From NCBI RefSeq assembly GCF_018842675.1, contig NZ_JAGTWO010000004.1, forward strand, positions 3,224,001 to 3,288,000: 64,000 bases of DNA, given 5' to 3'. The DNA is from Candidatus Pantoea bituminis (GTDB taxonomy: Bacteria; Pseudomonadota; Gammaproteobacteria; Enterobacterales; Enterobacteriaceae). Made by a program: the position numbers and the translations under genes. Below, piece by piece: positions 34,812 to 52,250 of this stretch. The notes under the pieces were generated by a model. It ran no database searches. It saw only the letters and a list, made by a program, of their open reading frames with translations, and was not told where the DNA came from. Positions within the stretch are counted from its first letter, which is position 1, and every line of letters begins with the position of its first letter.

Positions 34812-35061
34812 AACAGAGTCCTTTGTTGTGAAGAGCGGAGAAAGGAATCATAACTCTACGGGGAATATCGTCGCCTGGCTTTTGTTAAAAAGGCGACATC
34901 CCTTTGAAAACGCCTCCTTCACTTTTTTGCCACCCTGAATAGCTCACCGCTTTATGCAGGCTTACCCAAGGTGAATTTTCGCAAACATTATGCAAAGCTG
35001 TTACGTGTTGCAGTAATTTGGAAGCCGACTCGCAAATCGGCTACGCCACAGGACACGAAAC

Positions 35062-36120: not shown

Positions 36121-36649
36121 TGATACCGTTGCGGTTGAGATGTCTCCGGTTCGTGATCGCTTCACGGCATTGCTGCCTGCCGGGGCGCGAGTTCTGGATG
36201 CAGGTTGCGGATCAGGGCGCGACGTAAAAGCATTTTTTGAGCGCGGTTTTGAGGTTGAAGCTTTTGATGCCTCGGCTGAATTAGTGGCGCTAGCGAGTGC
36301 TTATAGCGGATTGGCGATCCGGCAGATGCGATTTCAGGATCTGCATGCTGAAGCACGTTACGATGGAATTTGGTGCTGTGCTTCCTTGTTGCATGTGTCT
36401 TTGACTGAGCTGCCATCGGTGATGAGAAAAGTGGCAACGGCCCTGAAACCAGGCGGCATACTTTATGTGTCGTTTAAATATGGCATGGGCGAGCGGGAAA
36501 AGCAGGGACGTCAGTTTACGGATATGAATGAGGCTGGGCTAATCAAGTTAGCGCCTGAATTGCAGGTTATCGACACGTGGACCAGTGAGGACCAGCGGCC
36601 TGATCGCGTTGAGACGTGGTTGAATGGCTTGCTGAAATCTAAGCTTTGA
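36074..36649 (+). CDS. Class I SAM-dependent methyltransferase
   Basis: A ~191-residue Rossmann methyltransferase. Motif I is VLDAGCGSGRD and motif II ends at EAFDASAE; CCASLLHVSLTELPSVMRKVATALKPGGILYVSFK is the Methyltransf_11/TehB-like core. No DNA/RNA target motif such as NPPY is seen, so the substrate is more likely a small molecule or protein than DNA. GGAG stands ten bases before TTG 36074, which starts the TTQDFYQRN N-terminus; ATG 36065 has no spacing from the ribosome site. It overlaps the HNH gene by 47 bases. Confidence 0.85.
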   Translation: MTTQDFYQRNAQQFFDDTVAVEMSPVRDRFTALLPAGARVLDAGCGSGRDVKAFFERGFEVEAFDASAELVALASAYSGLAIRQMRFQDLHAEARYDGIWCCASLLHVSLTELPSVMRKVATALKPGGILYVSFKYGMGEREKQGRQFTDMNEAGLIKLAPELQVIDTWTSEDQRPDRVETWLNGLLKSKL

Positions 36650-37143
36650 CGTGATTCGGAGTAGCAAATTTCCCGTAAAGTCGGTTTGAACAAGCAGTTC
36701 AGCAAATGCCTAAGCTGAATTCCAGATACAAAAAAAGCCACTGATTTAAAAGAAAAAATAGTATCACAAACTCACGCACTCCCCCTTATATGCCCCGCAA
36801 TTTTTTTGTCTAAATCTTCATAGCTATCCACTTCCTGAGTTCTTTTTATGCCCGTTTCAAAGAGACAATAGGCTGAATGACGACGATTTTTTCTACCCGC
36901 AGAAACCCATACACTCATTTTCATTTAAAGAAGGTTTTATGGCATATCCTTCACACTGCTCACTCAAAATATTTTTGCATTAAAAACAAAAAGTTAGCTA
37001 AACCCAATCGATACAGAGTGGAATTTAGTGTTCATCAGGGTTTGCAATTTTTTGGCTTTCATAATCTGGTTCAACATTTCTGCCTTGAAAGTTGCCCCTC
37101 TATTACACTGAAGAGTAATTATTCATTTGAGAGGCCATCAGGG
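36650..37143. other. AT-rich gene-free stretch, probable left edge of a genomic island
   Basis: I see no gene I can support here. The segment 36680-36742 resembles the segment next to the broken tRNA-Leu at 62947-63010 (see the next entry). Base composition drops in GC from 36.65 kb onward. Confidence 0.5.
36680..36742. repeat. Decayed copy of the tRNA-Leu flank (island boundary?)
   Basis: GTCGGTT and, 35 bases on, CTGAATTCCAGATACAAAAAAAGCCACT match GTCGGTT and, 36 bases on, CTGAATTCCAGGCACAAAAAAGCCGCT at 62947-63010. The spacing and the terminal blocks agree, the middle is diverged. Confidence 0.5.
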
Positions 37144-38285
37144 ATGGATCAGAGTTCTGGCGGTCGACATCGTGCTTTTGATACGGCGATAGTATGGCAG
37201 GACCGTAATGATATGGTCAGGCAGGCGCTATTCGTAAGTATTCCCTGGTTCACGTTTGTGAACGTCAGCTTTGCTCTAATCATTTTTTTCGCAATGTCCT
37301 CATCAGCGGTTTTGACCGTTCAATCAGCGACCAGGCAGAAATACTTCCTCTCATTAATGGCATTGCGGTTGGCATCATTGCTTTCTCCTTTTTACTGGCA
37401 TTTTTTATCTATCGTCTTCCAGCCAGATTTACACCAATAAGTATGGGTTTATTGCTGATTCTCAGTTTGATGTGGAGCTACTGCAGCTATCATTTTATCG
37501 TCTGGTGGCACCTGCCATTTGCCTGGCCCCTCAGTGTGATCCTTATGCTCACCGCGCTGGCTGCGCTTTATTATCACCCACCTGCTCTTATGCTATTCCT
37601 GACCCCATTATGGTTAACCGCTTTGCTGGCAAGTATGCAACTGAATCAGGGCATCAGCGTGCGATTCTTACTGGTCTGGCTCATCCTCACAACCATTCTC
37701 ATTTATGGCCGCTATATCCTGCAGCGCTGGTTTGATGAAGCCTGGCGTCGTTATCAGGAGAACCGGATGCTTATTGCAATGCTTGATGTTATGGCGCATC
37801 AGGATGCACTCACCGGGACAGCAAACCGGCGGTCAATGGAAAACTATCTGGATGACGCTATCCGCCAGGCTTTGCCGTTTGCACTGATCATGCTCGATGT
37901 GGACTATTTCAAACGCTACAACGACCATTACGGCCATCAGGCCGGGGATGATTGTCTGGCAAAAGTAGCCGGCGTTTTGAAATCGTCGGTTCGCACGCCG
38001 GCAGATCTGGTAGCACGCTACGGAGGGGAAGAGTTTGTGGTCGTGCTGCCAACTGCCTCTCTGGACGAAGCTGCTCTGGTTGCAGAGCGTATCCAGGCGA
38101 GTCTGCATGCAACAGCGCTACCGCATCTCGCATCAGAAGTCAGCAATAGAGTCACCGTCAGCATGGGCATTGCTCTTTCAGGCAGCAGTGAGAGTGCTGC
38201 CGGAATTATTAAACGAGCTGATAACGCGCTCTACCGGGCAAAGCAGCAGGGTCGTAACCAGTGGGCAAAGCAAAAACCTGCTTAA
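37144..38285 (+). CDS. Membrane-bound diguanylate cyclase (one frameshift as read)
   Basis: A repaired product of 380 residues. About six hydrophobic segments precede DALTGTANRRSMENYL and the catalytic signature RYGGEEF. The RxxD inhibitory site is absent: TPAD stands where RxxD would be, so feedback by c-di-GMP is unlikely. The break is near 37285 in CATTTTTTTCGC, where an eighth T restores ALIIFFRNVLISG. The true start is ATG 37144. It ends three bases before the convergent MscS-type gene. Confidence 0.82.
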
Positions 38286-38288
38286 TCC

Positions 38289-39907
38289 CTATCGCGAACG
38301 GTCAGAAGCATCCTGGTTCGCAGGAGGCGTAAACCATTTCGATTTTGTCACGATCACCGGCTGCTCAGGCTGACTGATGAAGTTAGGAGACATGATCTGC
38401 ACGCCGAATTCGTTGAACACATCCTGTATATGGCCGTGGAGAATACTTCTTACCCCAGCCAGTGATTCTCCCGCCTGAAGCCGGACCTGGAGTTCATACG
38501 CCACATACCAGTCCTGCAGCGCCAGCTGGCGCACCAGCGGGGAAATGCTGCGATTAATCCCCGGTGTGCGACTGGCGGCAAGCTCCAGCATCGCTTCAAC
38601 CTGCCGCCAGGGCGTGTCATAACCAATGGTGACGCTGGTCGTCATGTTAACGCCGTCGCCTTTCAACGTTGCGCTCAGGTTCACAATTCTGCCGCTGACG
38701 ACAACCGCGTTGGGAACCGTAACCTCGTAGTTCTCGCGGGTCAGAATTTTAGTTGCCAGCATGCCCACCTCGCTGACGACGCCCTCATGATCGGCAATCC
38801 TGATAACTTCGCCTTTTCGCAGTGCGCGAGAATAGGTCAGCACCAACCCGCTCATAGCATGGTTCATCACGCCTGCCGATCCCAACGTCAGCATCAGCCC
38901 GAAGAAAACGCTTATCCCTTTGAAGGCGAGCGAGTTAGCCCCGGGTAAAAACGGATAAGCCGCCGACAAGGCGAATAACCAGATGACTACGCTGATCAGT
39001 TTACGGGTGACGCCAACGGTATCTGGATGCAGGCCCGACAGGTGTAACTGCCCGGTCTCGACTCGCCTGAGCACCAGTCTGAGCAATCGCGTCACCAGCG
39101 CCGTTATGAGGAAGATGACCACAACAATCAGCATGCCTGGCAGAGCGGAAAGTATGGCCATGCCCAGGCGTTGCAACAGCCCTAGCGCATAACCTCCCAG
39201 CTCCATGCCCCAAATTCGCGTCCAGGGAAACAGCCGCAACACCCAGCTGACCCAGATGTAAAATGACACGAGGAAAGCCGAGATAAGAACAATGGCATAC
39301 AGCCTTACCTCAATGGGACCGAGAAAGGCGCGCAGTGCGCCAGGAATGATGCTTTTCCGCTGAGCACGCCTTACGGCATATATCCGTTTCAGCCAGGCGT
39401 AGGAGCGCAGGGCAAACAGGATGAATGCGAGCAGTAACAGGGCACCCAAAAGCTTTTACCCGCTGAGAGCAGCAGGTAACGCGATGAATACTGCTCAGAC
39501 AATGATTGTCGAAGTGTGTCCAGACGGAGTCTGACGCGTTCCGCCGCCTGCGCAAGCGTCAGATCATCCCCTTCATCCAGGTCATTCTCAGCGAGCAACA
39601 TAAAAGGTTTGCCGTTGATAGAAAAAAGCACGGCTGGCTGTCGGTAGCGCGTCACATTGTGCATCTCTACCGACTGAGCGAGGTCATTATCATTGAGCGA
39701 GCGCAATATCGTCACGATTCGCTGGACCCGCTCCTCTGGCGTGGTAAGACCAAATTTTGCCTGCAGCATCACTACTGGCTGATTAAGCAGATATAACGTA
39801 CGCGCTTTTTCCTGCGCCGAGGGAGCCTGACGCGGCTCCGCGCCTAGCGCATCTTGTAACGTGAAGAACAACAGACAACCGCATATACACATCACCGCTT
39901 TAATCAT
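38289..39907 (-). CDS. MscS-family mechanosensitive channel (one frameshift as read)
   Basis: A repaired protein of 539 residues. A signal peptide ends near DALGAE and an extracytoplasmic segment of ~130 residues precedes several membrane helices and the MscS pore region (GISVFFGLMLTLGSAGVMNHAMSG) and beta domain (VVSEVGMLATKILTRENYEVTVPN). The break is near 39450: GGTAAAAGC has four A and needs five. It is the last gene of the sulfatase/MoxR cluster and faces the second cyclase gene. Membrane-tension release coupled to envelope work is a possible role. Confidence 0.8.
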
Positions 39908-39972
39908 TTTGCCTCCAGAAGCCGTACTTTGCCTGGCGGTAAATCCATCCGTAAGGCAGCCGTCAATGCGTA

Positions 39973-40776
39973 TTATTGAAATTGCCAGGTATACGAAATC
40001 AGAAAGCGTGTATCGGGATCGTCCAGATAGGTGTTGTTGTCCATAACGAACGTCAGAAGGTTTACTGAACTGTGCTCATCAAACCGATAACCTGCGCCAA
40101 GCCCGCCAAAATAACCCCGGTAATTCTCCCCCTTCTCATTTTTTGATCCATAAGAGCCTGCCGCAAAGCCGATCATCGTAAGTTCAGGCGTCAGCGGTCG
40201 GAGGGTAAAGGCACCAAGATACCCACTGCTGCCGGAGGTGGTGATCGTGCTGAATCCATACTCGGAAGGAATACCATCGGCGAACTGAGGCGCTTTACAG
40301 TCAGCTGCATTTCCGGTGCTGCAACCGGTTATCTCACCGGTGTTGTAGGTGTATCTGGCCATTGGGAATATCTGGAAACCGGCAGGTGCGAAGCCGAAAT
40401 GGCTAAGTGGTACAAAGGTTCCAATGGAATAGTTAGTCTGCGTTGCACCATTGGTATATTCGTTTTTGCCAAAATTAAAGTTAACGATGCCTACCGGAAA
40501 CAGCCATGATCCGCCCACGCGCCACTCGCTGGCATCACTGTTAACACGTGCGTTCAGTTTTTTTGCCGGGTCCAGCGCGACCGAGCCTGAGAAAGAGAGA
40601 TTGCTGTCGTCCATGTCATAGGTGTCCGACCACGAGACACCTACTTTGGTCGTCACCTTGGTCGGATCATCATCAAGCTTGTCGCGATTGTCGTTAACTT
40701 CTGCGCCAAGCGCCGCCTGGCTTGAAATCAACAGCCAGAAAGTCCCACTCCATGCATTCCGTACATGACGCAACAT
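39973..40776 (-). CDS. Secreted beta-barrel-like outer-membrane protein
   Basis: A 267-residue protein with a signal peptide ending at ALGAEV. The body shows alternating aromatic strand patterns (VGVSWSDTYDMDDSNLSFSGS, MARYTYNTGEI, YLGAFTLRPL) and a C-terminal aromatic residue run ISYTWQFQ, the usual barrel-assembly signal. ATG 40776 is preferred because GGAGG lies six bases upstream. I do not recognise the family. It is inside the sulfatase/MoxR cluster, so it may be the substrate porin or a client of the cluster. Confidence 0.68.
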   Translation of the reverse strand: MLRHVRNAWSGTFWLLISSQAALGAEVNDNRDKLDDDPTKVTTKVGVSWSDTYDMDDSNLSFSGSVALDPAKKLNARVNSDASEWRVGGSWLFPVGIVNFNFGKNEYTNGATQTNYSIGTFVPLSHFGFAPAGFQIFPMARYTYNTGEITGCSTGNAADCKAPQFADGIPSEYGFSTITTSGSSGYLGAFTLRPLTPELTMIGFAAGSYGSKNEKGENYRGYFGGLGAGYRFDEHSSVNLLTFVMDNNTYLDDPDTRFLISYTWQFQ

Positions 40777-40840
40777 AGTTAACCTCCGGATAGCATGCAT
40801 TTATTCGCGTGATAGCATATTTAACCCTGGACTCTGCTGG

Positions 40841-41125
40841 TTACTGCGGGCATTTGACCTGGCTCAGGAAGGTCTGATAACGCTTTTGATTGTTTTCGGT
40901 CAGCGCTTTTACGGCTGACAGCACGGCAGAATTATCATGGGTGCTGTCCAGAAAGCGTCTCTGCAATTGTTCATCGGTTACCGTCGTCGGTATCTGACAC
41001 TTGTGGCGCAGGTCATCGGTAATCTTCTGCTGCCTCAGCGCAAAGGCCAGGTTTTCATAGGCGGAGTTAGCCAGTGCGGGCGTTTGTGACAGCAGCATCA
41101 ATACGATCGGTATCAAGTATTTCAT
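40841..41125 (-). CDS. Small secreted protein in the sulfatase/MoxR cluster
   Basis: A 94-residue protein with a signal peptide ending at PALANSAYEN and a helical mature part containing two Cys (CQIPTT and VKCPQ at the end) that could form a disulfide. GGGAGA lies upstream of the ATG. I do not recognise it. It is separated by 65 bp from the outer-membrane gene and by 47 bp from the HAD phosphatase gene. Confidence 0.65.
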   Translation of the reverse strand: MKYLIPIVLMLLSQTPALANSAYENLAFALRQQKITDDLRHKCQIPTTVTDEQLQRRFLDSTHDNSAVLSAVKALTENNQKRYQTFLSQVKCPQ

Positions 41126-41172
41126 TCTTATCTCCCGGCCCGTTTCGGCCCTTTTAAACCCGAATAAATCAT

Positions 41173-42189
41173 TTATTCACTGCTTTGATCAGCGCTGCAT
41201 TGCGAAGGGTCAAACACTGTTTTCCACTCTTTCTTCATATCGACGATGACCCAACCCTTTTGGGGTGCCAGTCTTAACCCGCTGATAAGCGTTCCACTGG
41301 CGGGCGGATGCGCGTCGTAAGCATATTCACGCGCAGCATCGGTGTGATGAACCAGTAAACCAAAGGTTTTGTAGGTCGGATTGGCGGAGGTGTACTGGAG
41401 CATCGGCACATCGCCGTCGCTGTTACCGAACGCACCGACCGGACGCCGCCCCATAAAGAGATGGATGGCGACCGGCTTCATCGCTTCATCATCGTAAAAG
41501 GCGCCGTTCATGGTTTTACGCAGCTGCGTACCGTTATCTGTCAGAGAGAACTCACTCAGCGAAAAGGAGCCGACAACCTGTTCGGGCGGGATGCCATACA
41601 TTTTCTCGGCGAGTACGCGCATAAAATCGATGCCTCCTCCAGACACAATCCAGGTTTTGAAACCGTTATTCCGCAGATAATCCAGCAGCTGGCGCATCGG
41701 CTGATAGCCCAGCTGGTCATAACGGCAGCCGAAACGCGCATGACGATGATTATCGACCCAGTTGCTAACGCGCTGGCTAAATTCTTCCGTCGTCATGCCG
41801 CTATGCGTCAGAGCCATCAACTGCATCAACCCCTTTTTGCCCGACTGCATCACCACTTTCATATCGTTGTTTATTACCGCCTGCACTAAGGCATCGTTAT
41901 TCCATTCCGGGTGTTGTGGGGCGAGGCGTTTGATTTCATCAATCACGAACTGCAACTGAAACGTCAGCGGCGCTTCCGGCCACAATGTGCCGTCATTATC
42001 AAACACCACATAACGCTGACTGACAGGAATGAAGTCTTTGCTGTTCGATGACGTGGTTTCCTTCACCCACGTTTCAATAGCCTGTTTTGCGTGGCCGTTA
42101 TTCCAGGCACTGAGCGGATCGTCTGCCGCAAACGCCGAACCAAGATGAGCCGTAATCAGCAATGCCAGCAGGGGTTTTAATTTCATCAT
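41173..42189 (-). CDS. Periplasmic HAD-family phosphatase
   Basis: A 338-residue haloacid-dehalogenase-fold protein with a signal peptide (SAFAADD). The catalytic motif FDNDGTLW gives the nucleophile and acid aspartates (about 64 and 66). IVSGGG provides motif II, and GNSDGDVPML provides motif IV near the C-terminus. It is exported, unlike most HAD enzymes, and belongs to the cluster by an overlapping start with the BatD-like gene. Confidence 0.85.
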   Translation of the reverse strand: MMKLKPLLALLITAHLGSAFAADDPLSAWNNGHAKQAIETWVKETTSSNSKDFIPVSQRYVVFDNDGTLWPEAPLTFQLQFVIDEIKRLAPQHPEWNNDALVQAVINNDMKVVMQSGKKGLMQLMALTHSGMTTEEFSQRVSNWVDNHRHARFGCRYDQLGYQPMRQLLDYLRNNGFKTWIVSGGGIDFMRVLAEKMYGIPPEQVVGSFSLSEFSLTDNGTQLRKTMNGAFYDDEAMKPVAIHLFMGRRPVGAFGNSDGDVPMLQYTSANPTYKTFGLLVHHTDAAREYAYDAHPPASGTLISGLRLAPQKGWVIVDMKKEWKTVFDPSQCSADQSSE

Positions 42190-43202
42190 CTTTTCCTTTT
42201 GGTCGGAATGAGGTCAGGTAGCGGGACGATCCGCCAGTATTCACGCGTGCGCTGAACCAGCCGTTGCAGGCTCTGGCTAAGGAGGCGTCGGAAAAAGAAG
42301 CCCAGCAGCAGCAGCGCCAGCACGATCGCCGATCCCATCAGCAACGACTTCCAGTTGGTCGGGGCGCGGGCTTTCAACGCCTGTTCACTGCCAGCCGGAC
42401 GCGCAGCGGCGATGGCGTAATGCGCACCGGGTAATTCAGCCAGTTGCCACTGATGCTGGCGTGTATCCCACCAACGTAAACGCAACGGTGGGATCACCAG
42501 TTCGCCGGACTGAGAGGGCAGATAACGCAGCCGTTCTTCACGCTGTGCGCCGACGATCTCATCTCGCCCTTGCGTCAGGTTGCTGTTTACCGGCGGCAAG
42601 CGTTGCGCACCGGAACCGGGAATGGCATACAGCAGTTGCGGGATTTGCACGGCAATCACATCGGTCGCGCGCACTATTACAACGCGCTCAATGACGTCAC
42701 CGACATGTAACTGCTTATCCTCTGAGGCGCGGTAAAGTCGCCATTGCTGCGAAAGTTCAAGCCTGCTGGCTGGCAAGAAACGGTCTGGCTGACGCACATC
42801 GGCGGGCCAGCTGACCGACTTCTGCAGCACCGGCAGCGACACCGTTTTCGGCGGCTGATTCGCGGAACGCATCACTACATCTGTAGCAGGAAAACGCAGC
42901 TCGCCCTGATCCCACGCCATCACCTGACGTTCCATGCGGATGCCGCTCCAGCTGATACCGCCGCGATTACGTGTTACCAGTTGGTTGGGCAGCGGCGTGT
43001 TAAGCAAGTTACCGTTTTCAATGACCATTTCCGGCCATTGCGGCGGCGGATTAAACCAGCTGTCCGTCCAGAAGGTCACAGCAATCGTTACTGGCTGGCC
43101 CGGCACCAGTTGATCAGGAGCAACCAGTTCGCGCGTCATGGCCATTTCAGCCCGTACCGGCAGGCTTAGCAGCAACAGCAGACAAACGATAAGTCGCTTC
43201 AT
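42186..43202 (-). CDS. BatD-like membrane protein
   Basis: A 338-residue protein with a signal peptide ending at PVRAEMA, a periplasmic beta-rich region (GQPVTIAVTFWTDSWFNPPPQW) and a single C-terminal helix (LLMGSAIVLALLLLGFFF). BatD/BAAT proteins accompany MoxR-VWA sets. GGAGG stands before the ATG at 43202. It overlaps the VWA/TPR gene and the HAD phosphatase by four bases each. Confidence 0.75.
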   Translation of the reverse strand: MKRLIVCLLLLLSLPVRAEMAMTRELVAPDQLVPGQPVTIAVTFWTDSWFNPPPQWPEMVIENGNLLNTPLPNQLVTRNRGGISWSGIRMERQVMAWDQGELRFPATDVVMRSANQPPKTVSLPVLQKSVSWPADVRQPDRFLPASRLELSQQWRLYRASEDKQLHVGDVIERVVIVRATDVIAVQIPQLLYAIPGSGAQRLPPVNSNLTQGRDEIVGAQREERLRYLPSQSGELVIPPLRLRWWDTRQHQWQLAELPGAHYAIAAARPAGSEQALKARAPTNWKSLLMGSAIVLALLLLGFFFRRLLSQSLQRLVQRTREYWRIVPLPDLIPTKRKR

Positions 43203-44725
43203 GGTGCCTCCGCCGGTGTGGAGCGGTAGAGATTTTCCAGCAAACCGCCGGGCGAAAGGGTGAGATTGCTGTACCACTGTTCAGCCGAGGGCGCAGCGCC
43301 CGCGATGGGCTTCATATCCAGCTGGTTCACGCCCTGATCGGGTTTGAGATCGTGTTTAATGGCGTCAGGATCTTCATCTTTCTGCTCATGCTGATCGGCC
43401 TGGCGGTCGCGTTCTTTTTGCCGCAGCTGCATGATGATATGCGCAATTTTCGCCCGGTTTTGCTGAGCCATTGCCCATTCGGGTCGTAAACTCAGCGCCT
43501 GATCGTAGCTGTGCAGCGCCTGCTGCCAGGATTTCTGTTGTGCGTAGCAGTTGCCTATCCACAACAGACTTTCAGGGGTGGCAGGAACCTGACGAAAAGC
43601 CCCCAGCGCCGAGACGTAATCCTGCGCGTAATAGAAGGCAATCCCCCGCCGCAACGGATCCTGAAAGCGTTGGGCGGCGGCTGCATAGTTACCGTGATTA
43701 AAGGCAAATTGTCCCTGCACGTCGGGGCGTATCCAGGCGTCCAGAAGTGCCGCTGAACTGGCGGGAGACCAGATCAGTAAGGGCAGCATCACGACAGCCA
43801 GGCAGAGCAGCTGCTGTCGCCAGAGCAGTAATAGCATCAGCATTGGGACGACCAACAGATAGCCGCTGTTCTTCCACTGCAAATCTTGCCGGCTGTTCTG
43901 CTGCGCCGTCACGCTTTGCTGAATATGTCCGCTGACCGCGCGTAGGTCATCATCTTCGACAGAGACCAGCGTCACCGGAATGCCGCCATCACGGATTTGC
44001 TCAAAGCGCGCGACATTGAGACGCGTATCGATGCCCTGCGACGCCTGCGCTTCCGGCAGTCTGCCGCCGTTTGCCGTGCCTACTACCCAGATCTGGAGAG
44101 GCAGATTTTGCTGCCGCAGCCACTCAACGTCCTGCTGTGCTACGTTATCAGCGACCAGTATCAGCGCGCGTGGGGCTTCAGGCGTTGCGGGCAGATTTTT
44201 AAGCGCAAGGGCGACCGCCTGACGCAGCCCGGAACCCTCACCCTGCGGCACCAGTGTCGGCTGTTGGGCCGTCAGGAACAGGTTATAAAAATCGGCATCA
44301 TTGGTCAGCGGCGTGGTAAGCCAGGCATCAGCGCTGTAAACCACTAAACCAAAGTGGCTACCGGGCATTTGCGTCATCAGTGCGGTGATTTTCTGCTGCA
44401 TGCGCTGATGGCGGTCAGGCGGCACATCCTGCGCCAGCATGCTGAGATCCTGCTGCATGATCACCATCACGTTGTTTTCGGGCGTGAATGCGGCGGGCAA
44501 GTCTCGTTGCCAGCTCGGACCGGCTAAAGCCAATACACCCAGGCAAAAGAGCCACGGCAGCACCTGTCGCGCCCGTACACGCTGACCTTTAATCAACGCG
44601 GCCGCAAAAGGCTTTTCCATGACACGATGCCAGGCACTTCCTGCATGCTGAGCCAAAAAATAGAGCAGCGGACAGAGCAGCAAACCCAGTAATCGCCAGG
44701 GATAGAGGAAATGGAAATCGCTCAT
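43199..44725 (-). CDS. VWA-TPR membrane protein (BatB/BatC-like fusion)
   Basis: A 508-residue protein. Two N-terminal membrane helices frame a VWA-type domain, a further helix pair lies near residues 300-330, and the remainder has tetratricopeptide-like repeats (FNHGNYAAAAQRFQDPLRRGIAFYYAQDYVSALGAF, WIGNCYAQQKSWQQALHSYDQALSLRP) and a charged C-terminus. The VWA metal site is degenerate: MQQDLSMLAQD replaces the canonical DxSxS. It fuses the roles of BatB (VWA) and BatC (TPR). It overlaps BatA and the BatD-like gene. Confidence 0.78.
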   Translation of the reverse strand: MSDFHFLYPWRLLGLLLCPLLYFLAQHAGSAWHRVMEKPFAAALIKGQRVRARQVLPWLFCLGVLALAGPSWQRDLPAAFTPENNVMVIMQQDLSMLAQDVPPDRHQRMQQKITALMTQMPGSHFGLVVYSADAWLTTPLTNDADFYNLFLTAQQPTLVPQGEGSGLRQAVALALKNLPATPEAPRALILVADNVAQQDVEWLRQQNLPLQIWVVGTANGGRLPEAQASQGIDTRLNVARFEQIRDGGIPVTLVSVEDDDLRAVSGHIQQSVTAQQNSRQDLQWKNSGYLLVVPMLMLLLLWRQQLLCLAVVMLPLLIWSPASSAALLDAWIRPDVQGQFAFNHGNYAAAAQRFQDPLRRGIAFYYAQDYVSALGAFRQVPATPESLLWIGNCYAQQKSWQQALHSYDQALSLRPEWAMAQQNRAKIAHIIMQLRQKERDRQADQHEQKDEDPDAIKHDLKPDQGVNQLDMKPIAGAAPSAEQWYSNLTLSPGGLLENLYRSTPAEAP

Positions 44726-45699
44726 GCACGTCGCCTCATCATTGTGCTGCTGATGGCAAACAGCAGTAATACGAGTAGCGCAAGGGCTAACGGCCAGACG
44801 AACAGCGGACGATGCCAGGATAAGCCCACTGTTTTAACCTGTTCCGGCGTTTGCGCATCAATTTGCTGCCAGACCTGCGCGAGTGCGTCGCGGTTGGTAG
44901 CGGCGCGCCAGGCGTTACCGCCGGTTATATGGGCAATGTTATCCAGCAGCGCCGTATCGACTTTATCTTCGCCGCTGCTGTTTACATCGCCAAAGGCGAT
45001 GGTGTGCGCCATAACGTGATGCGCGGCTGCGAGCTGCGCGGCGAGCGTGGGTTGCAGTTGAGAGGCGGTGTCATTGCCATCTGTCAGCAGAATCGCCATT
45101 TTTGACGCGTCGGCTTCGAGGCTGTGATCCAGCAGTTTCACCGCCACGCCCAGTGCATCCCCCACCGCAGTTTGCTGACCAATCATGCCCGGTGCCAGCT
45201 GGCTGATACGCGCTTGAAGCGCCTGTTTGTCCTCGCTGATCGGCGCAAATGGCCACGCCTGGCTGGCAAAAATCACCAGACCGATGCGATCATTTTTGCG
45301 CTGGCTGATAAAAGTGCGCACCGTTTGCTGCACCGCCTGTAAGCGCGTCTGACCATTCTGCCCGTCGTTTTTCTCCATTGAACCGGAAACATCCAAAATC
45401 AGCACGATGTTGCGCATGGGTTTTATCACCGTTTTCGGCGGCATCAGGTATTCAGGCCGGGCCAGCGCAGCAATCATTAAAATCCATACTGTCCAGAACA
45501 GCAGCCGATGACGCCAACTGGCTTGTGGTGCTGGCGCCGAGAGTTGCAGGGCTTCAGCCAGTTCAGGTAAAAAAGGCACTCTCACCTGTTCACTCGTCGG
45601 CTGCTTTGCAGGGATCAGATAATGAGTAATCAGCGGTAAAAACAGCAGCACGCCCACCCATGGCCAGACAAAGTCGATCCGTGATAAAAACTCAGACAT
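44722..45699 (-). CDS. VWA-domain membrane protein (BatA-like)
   Basis: A 325-residue protein with two N-terminal helices and one at the C-terminus (LFVWPLALALLVLLLFAIS). The VWA metal-ion-dependent adhesion site LDVSGSM is intact, as is the TDGND motif. It is the active partner for the following VWA-TPR protein. In MoxR-Bat systems such proteins are thought to help the MoxR ATPase act on envelope clients. The start overlaps the DUF4381 gene. Confidence 0.82.
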   Translation of the reverse strand: MSEFLSRIDFVWPWVGVLLFLPLITHYLIPAKQPTSEQVRVPFLPELAEALQLSAPAPQASWRHRLLFWTVWILMIAALARPEYLMPPKTVIKPMRNIVLILDVSGSMEKNDGQNGQTRLQAVQQTVRTFISQRKNDRIGLVIFASQAWPFAPISEDKQALQARISQLAPGMIGQQTAVGDALGVAVKLLDHSLEADASKMAILLTDGNDTASQLQPTLAAQLAAAHHVMAHTIAFGDVNSSGEDKVDTALLDNIAHITGGNAWRAATNRDALAQVWQQIDAQTPEQVKTVGLSWHRPLFVWPLALALLVLLLFAISSTMMRRRA

Positions 45700-46129
45700 G
45701 AGGCAGCGTCTCCAGCCAGTGGCGTAACTGCTGTGAGATTCGCTGATTGATAGCGCTTTCGAGTTGATTATCTGGCTGACAGTAGCGACGACACATCAGC
45801 GCGCGCAGTTCTTCATCCAGCGGGGTCTGCGCCAGAAGTTGTTCCGGCGATTGCCACTGGCTGACCTGGGTGCGAGAGTGTTGCACCAGAAGCACCCGCT
45901 TAACCCATGTTATCCAGCCATCCACCTGCTGTTGAGCAAGGTGTTTTCGCGCTTCGCGCCGCCAGCGATTACGACGAAAGCGTGCGAGCCATATAAGCAG
46001 GGCAATGAACATCGCCAGTAACAGCATCACGCCGAGCACCGCCCAGCCTGCCGGTAACGGGAACCATGAGGCGGCTGCTGGCAGAGCAGGATGCGCCAGT
46101 TCCGGTGTGCTAAACCCTTTTGCCAGCAT
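45692..46129 (-). CDS. DUF4381-type small membrane protein
   Basis: A 145-residue protein with one N-terminal membrane helix (AGWAVLGVMLLLAMFIALLIWLA) and a helical cytoplasmic tail (WITWVKRVLLVQHSRTQVSQWQSPEQLLAQTP). The family DUF4381 is a common MoxR-cluster member. ATG 46129 has AGGAGG six bases upstream, better than 46135 or 46165. It overlaps DUF58 and BatA-like genes. Confidence 0.75.
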   Translation of the reverse strand: MLAKGFSTPELAHPALPAAASWFPLPAGWAVLGVMLLLAMFIALLIWLARFRRNRWRREARKHLAQQQVDGWITWVKRVLLVQHSRTQVSQWQSPEQLLAQTPLDEELRALMCRRYCQPDNQLESAINQRISQQLRHWLETLPHV

Positions 46130-47035
46130 GCGCATCCTCCTGCTGTAGCTGCGGCAGAACTGCATTACCGGTCACGATAGTTTTCACCGTGATCCCCATT
46201 CGCTGTAACCGCCGTTGCTGCTGCGACAGACGCTCGGTTACGCTTTGCTGAATGCGATCGCTGAGGTGAGAAGTGAGATTGAGCGCGGTGCTTACGTCAT
46301 GGTAATACGCCGCAAGTTGACCGTGCGGCGGCAGGCGGCGATGAAGATCATCAAGCGTGACATAGGCGGTAATTTCGCAGCGGCGACGCAGGTGAGCCAA
46401 CACCGCATCGCAGCGTGTATCCAGATCGTGAAAATCACTGATGATCCCCAGCCAGCTACCGGAGGGCAGCAGGCGGACAATACGTTGCAACGCGTCTGAC
46501 AGGGAGACGTTTTGTCGATGGTTTTGCGCATAATGCGCGGGAAGCTGAGCATTCATACGCTGAACGTCAGTAAGAATGGGCATCAGGTTGCGTTTCGGCG
46601 CACGGCAGGGATGCAGCGCCAGTTCATCATCACCCAATATCGCGCAGCCCAGTCGATCACCGTCATGCCAGCTTCGCCATGCCAGCAATCCGGCAATGTT
46701 TCCAGCGGCGACCGATTTCATCTGCAGGCGGGTACCGAAGTACATGTCCAGACGCTGATCCACAAGGATGAATACGGGTCGTTCGCGCTCCTCATTGTAG
46801 AGGCGGATCCACGGTGAGCGGAGGCGTGCTGTGGCCTTCCAGTCAATCAGCCTGACATCATCACCCGGCTGATAGCGACGTAAGCTATCGAAGTTCAGGC
46901 CGCGTCCCTGCTGGCGGGACACGCGCTCACCGGTTAATGCGCCGGGTGGGATTTGCCCCGGGGATTATCCAGTCGCTGTGCGTCACCTGCCAGCGCCATC
47001 AGGTCAGCCAGTTCAAGCGTCAACGGCTGCGGCAT
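46110..47035 (-). CDS. DUF58 protein (one frameshift as read)
   Basis: A repaired protein of 308 residues. The conserved core GLNFDSLRRYQPGDDVRLIDWKATAR and the VWA-like FILVDQRLD are present; LGIISDFHDLD follows. The first ~30 residues (MPQPLTLELADLMALAG...DNPRGK) are in another frame: at 46952-46954 TTT should be TTTT, giving KIPPGALTGERVSRQQ. Repair restores a TAATG overlap with the MoxR gene, so the break is probably a sequence error. Confidence 0.85.
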
Positions 47036-48033
47036 TACGCCACCACTGCGCTAAGAAGCATGGCAATCGCCTGATCGGGCGTGCAGTTGTCAGCGTTTGC
47101 CTGATAGCTCAGCAGCAGACGATGGCGCAGCACGGCCGGCGCGATGCGTTGAATATCTTCTGGCAACACCGCATCACGGCCATCCAACCACGCGCAGGCA
47201 CGACCACAGCGATCCAAGGCAAGCGTGCCGCGCGGGCTGATGCCGAGGCTGATATAACCCGCAAAGACTTCGCTGACCTGATCGGGATGACGCGTCATTT
47301 CCACCAGATTGACGATGTACTGCTCTACGGTTGGCGCTACATAAACCGTGGCGATTTCACGCCAGCATTCGGCGATATCCTGTTGGCTTATCAGCAACGG
47401 GTCGGTTTCCGGTACAGGGTTTTCATGCTGAGCAGCCTGATATTTTGCCTGCTGCTCAGCGCGCACCAGTTGCATTACCCGCTGTTCATTCTCTTTCGAC
47501 GGATAATCGACAATCACCTTCATCAGAAAACGGTCAAGCTGGGCTTCAGGTAAGGGCCAGGTACCTTCCTGATCCACCGGGTTTTGTGTCGCCAGCACCA
47601 TGAATACTCCCGGCAGCGGCCAGGTTTTGCCTGCGACGGTCACGTGACGCTCTTCCATGGCCTCCAGCAGCGCCGACTGCACGCGAGCTGAGGCGCGGTT
47701 GATCTCATCGGCGAGGATGATATTGCCGAACACCGGGCCGGGGCGGAAGCGAAACTGATCTTCTTCCCGTGTGGCATTTTGCTGATAGATTTCGCTGCCG
47801 GTAATGTCTGAGGGCAGCAGGTCAGGCGTGAACTGAATACGACGGAATTCGCCTTCGATATGGCGAGCCAGTTCGCGCACCGCACGCGTTTTCGCCAAGC
47901 CCGGCAAGCCTTCCAGCAGCACATGACCGTCACACAATAAGGCCACGATCAGCATTCGCACCAGCTCCTGCTGTCCAATCACCTGCTTGTTCATACTGGC
48001 TTCCAGCGCCAGCAGCTTTTCACGATTATTCAT
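47035..48033 (-). CDS. MoxR-family AAA+ ATPase
   Basis: A 332-residue MoxR ATPase. Walker A GLPGLAKT is near residues 41-48 and Walker B is ILADEINRAS; sensor QNPVDQEGTWPLPEAQLDRF and the C-terminal lid are intact. MoxR chaperones act with VWA and DUF58 partners encoded next to them. Here it is between the sulfatase maturase and DUF58 and shares overlapping stop/start codons with both once frameshifts are repaired. It is the likely engine of this cluster. Confidence 0.92.
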   Translation of the reverse strand: MNNREKLLALEASMNKQVIGQQELVRMLIVALLCDGHVLLEGLPGLAKTRAVRELARHIEGEFRRIQFTPDLLPSDITGSEIYQQNATREEDQFRFRPGPVFGNIILADEINRASARVQSALLEAMEERHVTVAGKTWPLPGVFMVLATQNPVDQEGTWPLPEAQLDRFLMKVIVDYPSKENEQRVMQLVRAEQQAKYQAAQHENPVPETDPLLISQQDIAECWREIATVYVAPTVEQYIVNLVEMTRHPDQVSEVFAGYISLGISPRGTLALDRCGRACAWLDGRDAVLPEDIQRIAPAVLRHRLLLSYQANADNCTPDQAIAMLLSAVVA

Positions 48034-49323
48034 TATGCAGGTTCCACCGTCTGACGTTTCAGCAGCGTCGCAATGCCAACCAGAATCGGCTGCGCATAGT
48101 TAAAAAGGCTTTGATACCGGGACAGAGATAATTCATTCCCAGCTCGCCTTCTTCGCTCCTGACGATGCGGTTTTTCGGGCATTCGCCATAACAGAGTTTC
48201 AGGTAAGGGCAGCGTTTGCAGGCAGCAGGTAGCGTATCCCGCTTACCTAAACCAAAGGCTTTTTGTCGCTCGGAAAAGGCCATGTGCGCCAGCTTGGTGC
48301 TCTGCACATTGCCTAATTTGTATTCGGGATAGACGTAGTGATCACAGGAAAAAATGTCGCCATTTTTCTCAATCGCCAGACCTTTGCCGCAAAACTCTGA
48401 GGTGATGCAAATCTGCGCGGGCATACCCATAGTTTGCGCCACAGCGGTTTCAAACAGATTGACCTGCACCCGACCTAAATCGTTGTTCACCCACTCCTCG
48501 AACACAGCAATCAGAAAGCGCCCCCAGTCATCGGGATCCACTGACCAGTCGGTGACAATGGAGTCAAGGTCGCCGGGGCGCGCGCGACGTGAACCGATGA
48601 CCGGAATGGTGTCGTCGTGCCAGAACTGCGGTGCGGTTTGCTTGAAATCGACCGGCTCAACGCAGGGATTAAACTGGATGTAAGTAGCACCCAGTTCGCG
48701 CGTCAGAAAGCGGTAGACCTCCAGCGGGAAGCGCGCATTGGTGCGGTTGACGGTGACTAAGGCGTTGAAGGGAACATGATGGCGCTTTAACGCGGCAACG
48801 CCCGCCATCACTTTTTCAAAGTGGGTTTGCCGCTGCGCGTCACGCGGTAGCGATCGTGCAATTCAGCCGGCCCATCAATGGAAATGCCGACCAGGAAATT
48901 GTGCTGACGTAGAAAGCGCGCCCAGCTGTCATTAATCAGAATGCCGTTGGTCTGCAGATCGTTTTCAATACGCTGACCCGGTTTCTGATATTTCTTTTGT
49001 AGCACCACGATTTTTTCGAAGTACTCCAGCCCCATTAACGTGGGTTCGCCGCCTTGCCACGAGAACACCACCTGTTCGCCATCCTGGCTGTCGATGTACT
49101 GCCGGATGAAGGTTTCCAGCACCTCATCGCTCATGCCGCTGTGTCTGTCCTGTTCCAGAAGCTGTTCTTTGTGCAGATAAAAACAGTAGTTGCAGTCGAT
49201 GTTGCAACGCGATCCAGTAGGTTTCGCCATCACATGAAAACGACGCGTGTAAGCAGGCCCTTTCCCACTGAACTTTTCCGCCGTAGGAAGGGGTTTAACC
49301 GGCAGGGTTGTACTGTATTTCAT
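48033..49323 (-). CDS. Anaerobic sulfatase maturase, radical SAM (two frameshifts as read)
   Basis: A repaired protein of 430 residues that converts a Ser or Cys of a sulfatase to formylglycine without oxygen. The radical-SAM cluster CNIDCNYC (Cys 40, 44, 47) and VFSWQGGEPTLMGL are followed by SPASM-type Cys motifs (CGKG, CKRCPYLKLCYGECPKNR). Breaks are near 48811 (ACTTTG needs a fourth T) and 48105 (CCTTTTTAAC needs a sixth T). With both fixed the stop overlaps the MoxR start. GGAGG stands before the ATG. Confidence 0.88.
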
Positions 49324-49338
49324 GAACGCCTCCTGAAA

Positions 49339-49362
49339 ACCGGGTGAAAAATTTCACCCGGT
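49339..49362 (-). terminator. Attenuator-like hairpin between sulfatase and maturase
   Basis: On the coding strand ACCGGGTGAAA and TTTCACCCGGT form an 11-bp stem with a short AT loop, followed directly by TTTT and then the maturase ribosome site. Confidence 0.6.
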
Positions 49363-49377
49363 GGTGTGGTCAGAGCA

Positions 49378-50961
49378 TCAGTTGGTAGCCGGACTGCCTT
49401 CCTCAATAAGTTTCGACACATCAGAAACGGTGAATGAGCCCGGTTTCTGACGTGGCGGGAACTCTTTAAAGCTCTGTAGCATTTCAGTGGCATATTTCTG
49501 CGCACCGCCCAGCAGGAACAGACGATCATAGAACCAGTGGTTGTAATCCATGCCATCGGTGCCTTTTTCCAGCGGGTCGATTTTCAGGTCAAATATCAGC
49601 GGTACACGCAGTTTCACGAACGGGTATTTCCATACGTCCATACCTGAACGTTCCTGAATCATGAAGTGCGCTTTCCAGCGACCATAACGCATCGCCAACA
49701 GGTCGCCGTCATCACTCCAGTAGAAGAATTCTTTGCGCGGATCCTCCTGAGTTTTACCGGTGATGAAATCAAGTTGGTTATAACCATCCAGATGCACTTT
49801 GTAGGTCATGGCACTGGTTTTATAGCCTTTTAGTAACTGCTGTTTAATGTCCGGCACGCCCGCTGCAGCCACCAGCGTTGGGAACCAGTCATTACTGCCG
49901 ATGATGTCGTTGATTAGCGTTCCGGGTTTAATATGTCCCGGCCATTTCACCATCGCAGGTACGCGGAAGCCGCCTTCCCAGCCTGTATTTTTCTCACCCC
50001 GGAACGGTGTGATACCGGCATCGGGCCAGGTGGCCGTCATCGGGCCGTTATCGGTGGTGTAAACAACAATGGTGTTGTCTTCTATGCCGAGATCTTTGAT
50101 TTTCTTCAGCACTTCACCGACGATTTTGTCGTGCTCCACCATACCGTCGGCATAGTCACCTAAACCGGTCACGCCTTTATCGGACGGTTTAATGTGCGTT
50201 TTGTTATGCATACGTGTGGTGTTGTACCAGGTGAAGAACGGCTTGTTGGCTTTGACCTGCCGCTCCATAAAGTCGTTGTTCGCCGCCAGCGTTTCCTCAT
50301 CGACGGTTTCCATACGCTTGGTATTCAGCGGGCCGGTATCCTCGATTTTCCCGTCCGCGCTGGACTTAATGACGCCACGCGGGCCGAATTGCTTCTTATA
50401 TTCAGGATCTTTCGGGTAATCCGGGTTTTCTGGTTCTTCTTCCGCATTCAGGTGGTACAGGTTGCCCATAAACTCGTCGAAGCCATGTGCGGTAGGCAGA
50501 AACTCATTGCGATCGCCGAGGTGGTTTTTACCGAACTGACCGGTGGCATAACCCAACTGCTTGAGAACGCTGGCAATGGTCGGGTCTTCCTTTTGCAGCC
50601 CTTGCGGCGCACCAGGCATGCCGACCTTACTCATCCCGGTGCGGAATGGCATCTGACCGGTAATGAACGAAGAACGACCAGCCGTGGAACTCTGTTCCGC
50701 GTAATAAGAAGTGAACTTGGCACCTTCGGCCGCAATACTGTCGATATTGGGCGTTTGATAGCCCAGCATTCCCTGATTGTAGGTACTGACGTTCCAGTAC
50801 CCGATGTCATCACCGAATATCACAACGATATTGGGCTTCTGATTATTTTGCTCCGGCGCCGTCGTGGTATTACTTGCCGGGGCTGCATAAGCGCTGGTCG
50901 CACAGCAGGCGACAGATAACATTGAGGCGAGCAGCGATTTGCAAAATGGCACTTTTGACAT
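49378..50961 (-). CDS. Periplasmic arylsulfatase, Ser-type
   Basis: A 527-residue sulfatase with a signal peptide ending near SAYAAPAS. IVVIFGDDIGYWN gives the calcium ligands, and SSTAGRSSFITG is the formylglycine motif, with Ser92 as the modified residue (S-T-A-G-R rather than C-x-P-x-R). Ser-type sulfatases need a radical-SAM maturase, and one lies directly downstream. TTDNGPMTATWPDAG and IFDLKIDPLEK are normal. The substrate is unknown; the FadL-like porin upstream may bring an organic sulfate ester. Confidence 0.92.
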   Translation of the reverse strand: MSKVPFCKSLLASMLSVACCATSAYAAPASNTTTAPEQNNQKPNIVVIFGDDIGYWNVSTYNQGMLGYQTPNIDSIAAEGAKFTSYYAEQSSTAGRSSFITGQMPFRTGMSKVGMPGAPQGLQKEDPTIASVLKQLGYATGQFGKNHLGDRNEFLPTAHGFDEFMGNLYHLNAEEEPENPDYPKDPEYKKQFGPRGVIKSSADGKIEDTGPLNTKRMETVDEETLAANNDFMERQVKANKPFFTWYNTTRMHNKTHIKPSDKGVTGLGDYADGMVEHDKIVGEVLKKIKDLGIEDNTIVVYTTDNGPMTATWPDAGITPFRGEKNTGWEGGFRVPAMVKWPGHIKPGTLINDIIGSNDWFPTLVAAAGVPDIKQQLLKGYKTSAMTYKVHLDGYNQLDFITGKTQEDPRKEFFYWSDDGDLLAMRYGRWKAHFMIQERSGMDVWKYPFVKLRVPLIFDLKIDPLEKGTDGMDYNHWFYDRLFLLGGAQKYATEMLQSFKEFPPRQKPGSFTVSDVSKLIEEGSPATN

Positions 50962-51068
50962 TTCTGTGCTCCAGATAAGTGGACTCTCGTAGGAAAGGCA
51001 AAGGGTTCGCCCGCCCGGTCAGATCGTTCGACATTAAGTTATGTGGTGTGCCTCCTTAGTGAGTCGGG

Positions 51069-52250
51069 TCAGAATGTCCGGCTGTAATTGATGCCAAAAA
51101 AGTAGAGAGCAGGATTGTCATAACGCCCTTTAATCAGCGGAGAGGAGACGTGTGAGGAAGCGATGTGCGCGTATTCGAAGGCGCCGCCGATGCTGCTGGC
51201 AGGATCAAGTTGGTAACGCGCACCCACGCCCCAGCGCCAGGTATCGCCGGACGGCATCGTCAGAGAGGTATCCTGCTGGCTGCGGTAAAAGCTGCTGTCG
51301 AAGGCAACGCCGGTATTCAGTGTCCAGTCAGAAGTGAGTTTGAATTGTGTGCCCAGTGCGAGGTGCCAGGTATCACGTAGACGCCCGTTGTCACCCACCT
51401 GATTGCCTGCCACGGTTATTTCACTGTTGCCGTAATCGCTCCAGTCCTGCCATCCCGCATCACCCATTACAGCCCAACGTTCATTCAGCTGATGGAAAAG
51501 GCTGAGCATGATCTGCTGCGGGGTATTGACGGTGGCCGCGATGGGTAATGTCCAGGAAGGGGAATTATTGAGCTGGTCAAGCCGGACAGTGTTGTTAACG
51601 TTGAAGTGATAATTTGTCCGGCTGGTATAGGTTAATCCGGCACGCGTCTGCGGGTTAAACTGCCACAGCGCACCCACTTTTCCGTTGAGCGCCCAGTCAT
51701 GGTCGGACAGTTCATCGCCACGAGCGCGCTTTATTTTCAGCAGGCCATAGTTAATACCCACCCCTGCCCCTAGCGAAAATGCATCGTTGAGTTGCCAGGC
51801 CAGCGCGGGCATCAGGGTAACCGCCAGGAGCGTGCTGTCCTTGATTAGGTTTTCCCCGGCCCAGTCGCCGAAATGCAGGCCGAGGCCGTAGTTGCCATAA
51901 AATCCTAATCCGGCACTCACGGTTGGGCTGATCCGTTGCGTGTAAAAAGCGCTGCCGCCGGGAAACCAGCCAATGACATTACCGGGGCTGTTGCCGCTGA
52001 GTTGTGCATCATCGTCCAGGCGGTAAGGGGCATCGCCATACAGTGCCTGCGCACCAACCGTGAGCATTTTGTCAGGCAACCTTGTCATGCCCGCAGGATT
52101 GGTAAAGAGCGTTGAGGCATCCTGCGCACGCGCCGCCTGACCTGCACCGGCCAGACCTATATCATCAGTACCAATTTCATATAGATAAAGTCCACTTGCG
52201 CATGCTGATGAGATATTAAATAAAATGGCCAAAGCTATTATTTTGCGCAT
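51069..52250 (-). CDS. FadL/OmpP1-family outer-membrane transporter
   Basis: A 393-residue outer-membrane protein of the FadL-type hydrophobic-compound channels. A signal peptide ends near SSACASG, then YLYEIGTDDIGLAGAGQAARAQDASTLFTNPAGMTRL is the family's plug-like N-terminal signature. The C-terminus ends in a Phe (YSRTF) as barrel proteins do. It is the first gene of the leftward cluster, 107 bp before the sulfatase, and may import a hydrophobic sulfate ester. Confidence 0.88.
   Translation of the reverse strand: MRKIIALAILFNISSACASGLYLYEIGTDDIGLAGAGQAARAQDASTLFTNPAGMTRLPDKMLTVGAQALYGDAPYRLDDDAQLSGNSPGNVIGWFPGGSAFYTQRISPTVSAGLGFYGNYGLGLHFGDWAGENLIKDSTLLAVTLMPALAWQLNDAFSLGAGVGINYGLLKIKRARGDELSDHDWALNGKVGALWQFNPQTRAGLTYTSRTNYHFNVNNTVRLDQLNNSPSWTLPIAATVNTPQQIMLSLFHQLNERWAVMGDAGWQDWSDYGNSEITVAGNQVGDNGRLRDTWHLALGTQFKLTSDWTLNTGVAFDSSFYRSQQDTSLTMPSGDTWRWGVGARYQLDPASSIGGAFEYAHIASSHVSSPLIKGRYDNPALYFFGINYSRTF

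Follow-up and report, generated by a model that had tools for sequence, protein, structure and literature searches.

A MoxR-Bat gene cluster is genetically tied to one subfamily of exported S1 sulfatases and is a candidate helper in their maturation

We analyzed a 64-kb stretch of DNA from Candidatus Pantoea bituminis (contig NZ_JAGTWO010000004.1, positions 3,224,001 to 3,288,000; the window, whose first letter is position 1) and found that it encodes an exported S1 sulfatase of a subfamily whose genes repeatedly lie beside a MoxR-Bat cluster (Bat, Bacteroides aerotolerance). The wider core consists of the sulfatase and MoxR-DUF58-DUF4381-VWA-VWA/TPR-BatD (VWA, von Willebrand factor A; TPR, tetratricopeptide repeat), often with an exported HAD phosphatase. 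The genetic linkage of sulfatase and Bat genes is well supported and gives a machine of a type already known a new genetic partner. Gene content, conserved linkage, co-occurrence specific to one Bat type and profile homology to the Mxa helpers of methanol dehydrogenase are all observed. By analogy with those helpers, we tentatively propose, at slightly less than an even chance, that the Bat-type MoxR/VWA complex acts as a dedicated helper of this one exported sulfatase subfamily, most likely by loading its catalytic Ca2+.

Linkage was first counted from the sulfatase side, using a profile (A1) built from 14 sulfatases. This profile was run on 397 Pseudomonadota genomes with at most three candidates scored per genome, so that match counts are lower bounds. 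Eighty-five places scored at least 566 bits, 82 of them in fetched loci and 3 not; those with at least 730 bits were taken as the subfamily (67 of 68 fetched). Each fetched stretch spanned at most 20 kb (22 kb for the window), some places shared one stretch, and a sulfatase was called linked when at least four of the six Bat core genes lay in its stretch. By this measure 31 of the 67 subfamily loci were linked to Bat, compared with 0 of 15 fetched places (of 17) below 730 bits, and MoxR accompanied none of 20 further S1 sulfatases hand-picked from lower rows of the same search. These counts bear out the tie between sulfatase and MoxR-Bat cluster proposed in the first-pass annotation. An HAD gene was present in 28 of the 67 subfamily loci (2 of 15 and 2 of 20 in the other two groups), both HAD and Bat in 17, a sulfatase maturase in 9 and a FadL-type porin in 4. 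Per genome, 25 of the 44 subfamily sulfatase carriers had Bat and 23 of 44 had HAD. Ends of stretches or contigs truncate some clusters, and locus L175, with two of the six core genes, was counted as unlinked.

A scan of GTDB genomes with A1 gave a similar view over a broader range of organisms. Among the best 80 of 578 confirmed matches (79 loci), a sample that favors close relatives, MoxR was found at 21 of 79 loci, VWA1 at 20, HAD at 29 and a maturase at 8. At two of the 21 MoxR loci, MoxR stands alone (L102, whose contig is 3.4 kb long, and L106), and L109 holds a Bat cluster truncated on the MoxR side. Among the organisms with linkage are Pantoea, Buttiauxella, Raoultella, Vibrio, Aliivibrio, Shewanella, Bosea, Nitrobacter and Albibacillus and, beyond Pseudomonadota, Echinicola and Galbibacter (Bacteroidota) and Desulfoluna (Thermodesulfobacteriota). 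Across many distantly related bacteria, this six-gene, ATP-driven membrane machine is retained beside one kind of exported sulfatase, which provides a concrete client candidate.

Counted from the Bat side, the linkage was specific to one type of cluster. A profile (A2) of 16 sulfatase-linked VWA1 proteins was run on the same 397 genomes, with at most five candidates scored per genome. Thirty-one rows reached at least 379 bits and the next score dropped to 351, a gap that is partly built in because A2 was made from linked loci. Above the gap, 26 of 31 rows lay within 10 kb of a subfamily sulfatase (lists compared by eye); below it, 1 of 119 did among the matches listed (G453, a partial match). 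The first-pass annotation had named one finding that would count against a joint system, namely that most relatives keep such clusters but lack the sulfatase beside them; we found this for ordinary Bat and not for this type. Among the unlinked rows above the gap, the sulfatase lies 95 kb away in genome G099, elsewhere in the genome for G134 and for a second copy in G114, and on a 6.4-kb contig of the fragmented genome G335. Of the 29 genomes carrying this Bat type, 28 have a subfamily sulfatase; of the 368 lacking it, 16 do (Fisher test, p = 1.6e-30, a significance overstated by counting related genomes as independent). Three Bat clusters of this type with no sulfatase nearby carry, divergent from moxR, a similar exported protein of ~350 aa, perhaps another client (L081:13877-14932, L082:5324-6379 and L085:12985-14046).

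Linked proteins cluster in a tree of 84 VWA1 proteins from chosen loci (56 linked and 28 unlinked, including 6 Mxa): the linkage label changed 7 times, compared with a shuffled mean of 23.5; leaving out the Mxa rows gave 6 changes and a shuffled mean of 19.4, and in both cases 0 of 500 shuffles were as low. Linked rows do not form a single clade, and nine unlinked rows sit among them (L073, L074, L079-L082, L085, L241 and L242). Seven of those nine genomes have a linked copy or a subfamily sulfatase elsewhere (G087, G131, G105, G099, G114, G077 and G134); of the other two, G055 has only a distant sulfatase (488 bits) and G030 has none. A FastTree tree of 192 sulfatases, 76 of them Bat-linked, showed 35 linkage changes, at least 28 of them forced by starred branches, compared with a shuffled mean of 60. 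This count takes in sulfatases that stand in tandem at a single Bat cluster, as well as loci truncated at an end. After removal of 17 surplus sulfatases, so that each Bat locus was represented once, and of 34 truncated unlinked loci, the remaining 141 rows (61 linked) showed 29 changes, at least 23 forced; the shuffled mean was 46 and 0 of 500 shuffles were as low. Such changes may be gains or losses of proximity, and the sulfatase and Bat genes are found head-to-tail, divergent, with Bat first and with Bat last. A functional tie would be expected to leave such a record of repeated loss and renewal with rearranged gene order.

Shared ecology or regulation could also keep the two together, with an envelope-stress Bat system retained alongside sulfate-ester scavenging genes and no physical action on the enzyme. 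We consider this improbable. Bat systems are indeed discussed around stress and aerotolerance (PMC3557215, in excerpt), but linkage was limited to one sulfatase subfamily (0 of 15 and 0 of 20 loci outside it) and recurs across many orders and phyla. The same excerpt does not support a protective role in Leptospira biflexa, where deletion gave no growth or oxidative-stress phenotype, and states that experiments had not yet established a specific function for spirochaete Bat proteins. The first-pass annotation had offered two roles. Assembly or activation of the exported enzyme is plausible; for protection of the envelope during sulfate-ester processing no evidence was seen, in an analysis not aimed at it.

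What the machine may do is suggested by the mxa genes, since five of the six mxa helpers of Ca-dependent methanol dehydrogenase match Bat proteins by profile. Mxa operons were taken from genomes with a pyrroloquinoline quinone (PQQ) dehydrogenase beside a diverged MoxR (loci L225-L230), with mxa identity read from gene order. Alignment of linked-locus profiles by hhalign gave a P score of 100 for MxaR with MoxR, 98.4 for MxaS with DUF58, 94.6 for MxaA with BatD, 99.6 for MxaC with VWA1 and 98.5 for MxaL with VWA1. As in mxaRSACKLD, whose MoxR is of the MRP type, MoxR, DUF58-like, BatD-like and two VWA proteins stand beside one exported enzyme; unlike there, the putative client is a sulfatase instead of a PQQ dehydrogenase, DUF4381 and a VWA2-TPR protein are present and MxaK has no clear counterpart. 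The window genome contained no TIGR03075 match (MxaF-type client) at E 1e-150. Ordinary Bat clusters share all six gene types and, when complete, their order as well; the type described here differs in a VWA1 that scores above the gap and is tied to the sulfatase.

S1 sulfatases depend on an active-site Ca2+, and the profile matches to Mxa suggest a dedicated maturation machine, perhaps one for Ca2+ loading. In the proposed sequence of events, the active-site serine would be oxidized to formylglycine by the maturase, or a cysteine by formylglycine-generating enzyme (FGE) in Cys-type relatives, before or during export. Cytosolic MoxR, through ATP hydrolysis, would then drive the membrane proteins DUF58, DUF4381, VWA1, VWA2 and BatD. 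The VWA and BatD domains of these proteins would lie on the periplasmic side and bind the sulfatase during completion of its active site, for which insertion of the catalytic Ca2+ is the most likely step. The HAD phosphatase would be a frequent partner of the same sulfatase and not a part of the MoxR machine. We infer the Ca2+ step from analogy; mxaACKLD are reported to encode Ca2+ insertion and mxaRSEH to control maturation (PMC11845868), and MoxR proteins of several subfamilies are required for enzyme activity or assembly (PMC3893208). A wider generalization, that Bat-type clusters are client-specific periplasmic enzyme-maturation machines, this type being an ATP-driven Ca2+-loading and quality-control machine for S1 sulfatases, is possible but doubtful. 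If the proposal is true, an energy-dependent step would be added to sulfatase maturation, beside FGE or the anaerobic sulfatase-maturing enzyme (anSME). The genetically tied exported enzyme should suit simple chromogenic substrates, which makes the client question directly testable. Neither a description of such a further maturation step nor a tie of MoxR/Bat to a sulfatase was found in our searches of an open-access library (for the latter, among the titles and abstract beginnings listed; subscription papers were outside the scope); in the excerpts of PMC7159879 and PMC545781, where both occur, they are unrelated.

Several observations weigh against a dedicated helper. Thirty-six of the 67 subfamily loci lack at least four core genes nearby and this Bat type is missing from 16 of the 44 sulfatase genomes, so Bat is not always needed; conversely, G030 carries this Bat type and no subfamily sulfatase. 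The two VWA1 proteins with linkage in Bacteroidota fall among ordinary Bat rows (support 82), so either linkage had more than one origin or this part of the tree is uncertain. MxaK found no clear partner among the linked-locus profiles by hhalign. The homology also does not single out Ca2+, because ordinary Bat clusters are Mxa-like too; since ordinary Bat is homologous to linked Bat, homology speaks more for the general task of maturing an exported enzyme than for Ca2+ loading in particular. Finally, the maturase and DUF58 genes of the window itself are broken.

The machine might instead act negatively, removing, unfolding or silencing the sulfatase or controlling its release, as MoxR is an AAA+ ATPase. 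We regard this as very unlikely, since the MoxR clients named in the excerpt of PMC3893208 are activated or matured. A hairpin lies 3' of the sulfatase stop codon in the window (49339..49362, minus strand), and its presence between sulfatase and helpers in several Enterobacterales would fit low helper levels, which suit negative action and maturation equally. We examined the sulfatase-maturase spacers of eleven loci from the order Enterobacterales and scored eight by folding. The sequences differ, and the z scores were -3.71 (window), -3.29, -1.40, -1.13, -5.29, -2.44, -3.02 and -5.32, two of the eight folds being unremarkable. The three unscored spacers comprise a 1-nt overlap (L046), a weak fold (L092) and a long fold (L047). 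A terminator scan yielded 16 hits where 16.2 were expected, hence no excess, and the window hairpin was not among them; a promoter scan found 5 where 10.4 were expected. If the hairpin dampens transcription, the helpers would be scarcer than the sulfatase, as reported for mxa, where mxaFJGI expression is high and the downstream mxa genes are 10- to 50-fold lower (PMC3615186, in excerpt).

The maturase next to the window sulfatase had been read as part of the MoxR unit, a claim that we set aside because its presence tracks the Ser active-site residue instead. A maturase lay within 10 kb in 17 of 17 Ser-type sulfatases. With a stricter maturase family cluster and a 4-kb limit, the count was 15 of 18 Ser-type and 5 of 174 Cys-type; the latter form the bulk of the subfamily (174 of 192 rows). 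FGE (PF03781) was found within 4 kb of 23 of 174 Cys-type and 0 of 18 Ser-type sulfatases (p = 0.14 when taken alone), and the remaining Cys-type sulfatases had a maturase in few cases and otherwise neither gene within 4 kb. Both anSME and FGE produce formylglycine. Since Ser-type sulfatases have a maturase close by, the window maturase is explained without MoxR. The arrangement resembles Ser-type sulfatase/maturase pairs such as atsA/atsB in that the sulfatase is followed by its radical-SAM maturase; it differs in having a MoxR-Bat cluster and HAD coupled downstream, and most subfamily members examined are Cys-type.

It is also conceivable that the Bat machine acts not on the sulfatase itself but on a partner from its module: the HAD phosphatase, an octaheme TPR cytochrome, or an assembly of these that includes the sulfatase. 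We judge this unlikely, keeping in mind that the loci were selected by sulfatase, so that the constancy of the latter is partly built in. HAD is frequent in subfamily loci, but it is equally common without Bat (within 2.5 kb, 15 of 76 Bat-linked and 27 of 116 unlinked sulfatases), and it does not covary with Bat (median p = 1). The cytochrome (645-859 aa) recurs next to subfamily members across several phyla, at L165:10961-13333 and 36 further loci, with eight CxxCH motifs in 36 of the 37 and seven in one. At distances up to 2.5 kb it accompanies 27 of 76 Bat-linked and 11 of 116 unlinked sulfatases, but correction for the tree leaves weak covariation with Bat (median p = 0.07 at 2.5 kb and 0.11 at 4 kb); a wider search in Bat loci had biased the signal upward, and equal distances weakened it. 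No octaheme cytochrome was found beside the window cluster. In Klebsiella aerogenes NCTC10006 (L267:20874-24929), and partly in Raoultella (L088), the Bat cluster faces a convergently oriented second set of sulfatase, maturase and HAD genes, so that two sulfatase modules may share one Bat machine.

In the window, all genes of the run are on the minus strand, with families assigned from Pfam and NCBIfam profile matches. The sulfatase (49378..50961) has a PF00884 domain (168.7 bits) with the C/S-x-A/P-x-R signature as SSTAGR and the conserved active-site positions (by profile and by alignment to arylsulfatase A), and it carries GNLYHLNAEEE, a motif present in 157 of 176 subfamily rows. The maturase follows as an N-terminal piece (48808..49323, TIGR03942 positions 1-139) and a C-terminal piece with SPASM (48059..48811, positions 142-352). 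Next come MoxR (47035..48033; PF07726, 208.2 bits; Walker A and B) and DUF58 (46110..47035). The latter is broken: a frame from 47035 to 46934 overlaps the MoxR stop by 1 nt and ends after 33 residues, and the domain resumes from a GTG at 46922 in the main frame, 46922-46110 (PF01882, 105.8 bits). DUF4381 (45692..46165; PF14316, 38.2 bits) is followed by VWA1 (44722..45699; PF13519/PF00092, BatA/MxaC-like), in which the DxSxS of the metal ion-dependent adhesion site (MIDAS) is present, and by VWA2 with TPR (43199..44725; PF13519 and PF07719, BatB/BatC-like), in which DxSxS is absent. The cluster thus has a contiguous AAA_3 with Walker motifs, DUF58 (broken) and a VWA with MIDAS. An exported, C-terminally anchored protein (42186..43277, likely start 43202) is BatD-like through its relatives; it had no Pfam or NCBIfam match of its own, and among four relatives tried with PF13584, L054 and L242 passed and L046 and L050 fell just under. 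The exported HAD-family phosphatase (41173..42189) has a DNDGT motif (PF12710, 45.5 bits; PDB 4ovy, E 1.3e-91). A PADLOC search with five L046 proteins gave a single weak match, DolB at 18.4 bits.

The thirteen-gene run of the first-pass annotation, extending from a FadL porin to an MscS channel, is present with the families named, except that maturase, DUF58 and MscS are broken, BatD is recognized only via relatives and the "barrel" protein is unmatched. Its translational coupling holds in part. The window maturase consists of two open reading frames (ORFs), 49323-48808 and 48811-48059, scoring 221.9 and 260.3 bits, each under the curated TIGR03942 cut-off of 349.45 (its relative in L046 scores 513). 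Since it is one gene cut in two, the stop/start overlap seen there marks a break in the reading frame, and the maturase ends 25 nt before MoxR begins. In Pantoea agglomerans Y03, the maturase, DUF58, MscS and GGDEF genes are each annotated as a single gene, and the coupling is genuine: the overlap is 1 nt at maturase/MoxR, MoxR/DUF58 and BatD/HAD and 4-20 nt at the four intervening junctions. The window frame breaks would fit indel errors of assembly, or else real decay; comparison with the Y03 DNA did not discriminate between the two, and the window genome (G000) has a completeness of 95.96 and a contamination of 2.25. Near these breaks, a MASE5-GGDEF gene (36877-38285) is likewise split into two ORFs, and in K. 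aerogenes NCTC10006 the maturase adjoining the Bat cluster is also annotated as two coding sequences (L267:13640-14935).

Y03 is the nearest annotated copy found. Its cluster lies on a 561-kb plasmid (NZ_CP144369.1), the sulfatase is 98.9% identical, gene order matches from the porin through the GGDEF gene and a single DNA alignment spans window positions 37074-52199 at 86.6% identity. The sulfatase-to-HAD core is also present in Pantoea sp. SOD02, on a 927-kb plasmid (NZ_CP102605.1), and in Pantoea sp. alder81 (L086); the window cluster is on a 4.0-Mb contig. Two same-genus genomes (G097 and G462) had no match to the sulfatase or VWA1 profile, and the locus is therefore sporadic. Relatives of the window sulfatase at E 1e-80 were found in 204 plasmid records.

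The flanking genes comprise the FadL-type porin (51069..52250; PF03349), a YicS-family small protein (40841..41125; NF041639, 95.8 bits), the 275-aa "barrel" protein (39973..40800), for which we obtained zero Pfam or NCBIfam matches and which has a hypothetical protein at the same place in Y03, and an MscS-type channel (38289..39907; PF00924) in two ORFs, 39907-39389 and 39449-38289. The porin and the tension channel had been taken to define the system, a view that the counts do not support. A FadL relative occurs in the fetched stretch of only 4 of 67 subfamily loci, the window among them. A same-strand MscS neighbor appeared only in Pantoea, and the YicS-like and barrel proteins hardly outside it (profiles built in this analysis). 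We therefore rejected all four as system parts. Both Pantoea plasmid loci (Y03 and SOD02) retain porin and MscS, and the window and Y03 are the only two loci where all four neighbors were seen together. Farther along the window (33114-36649), an HNH endonuclease-like ORF overlaps a methyltransferase ORF beside a DUF4153 gene, possibly a small island.

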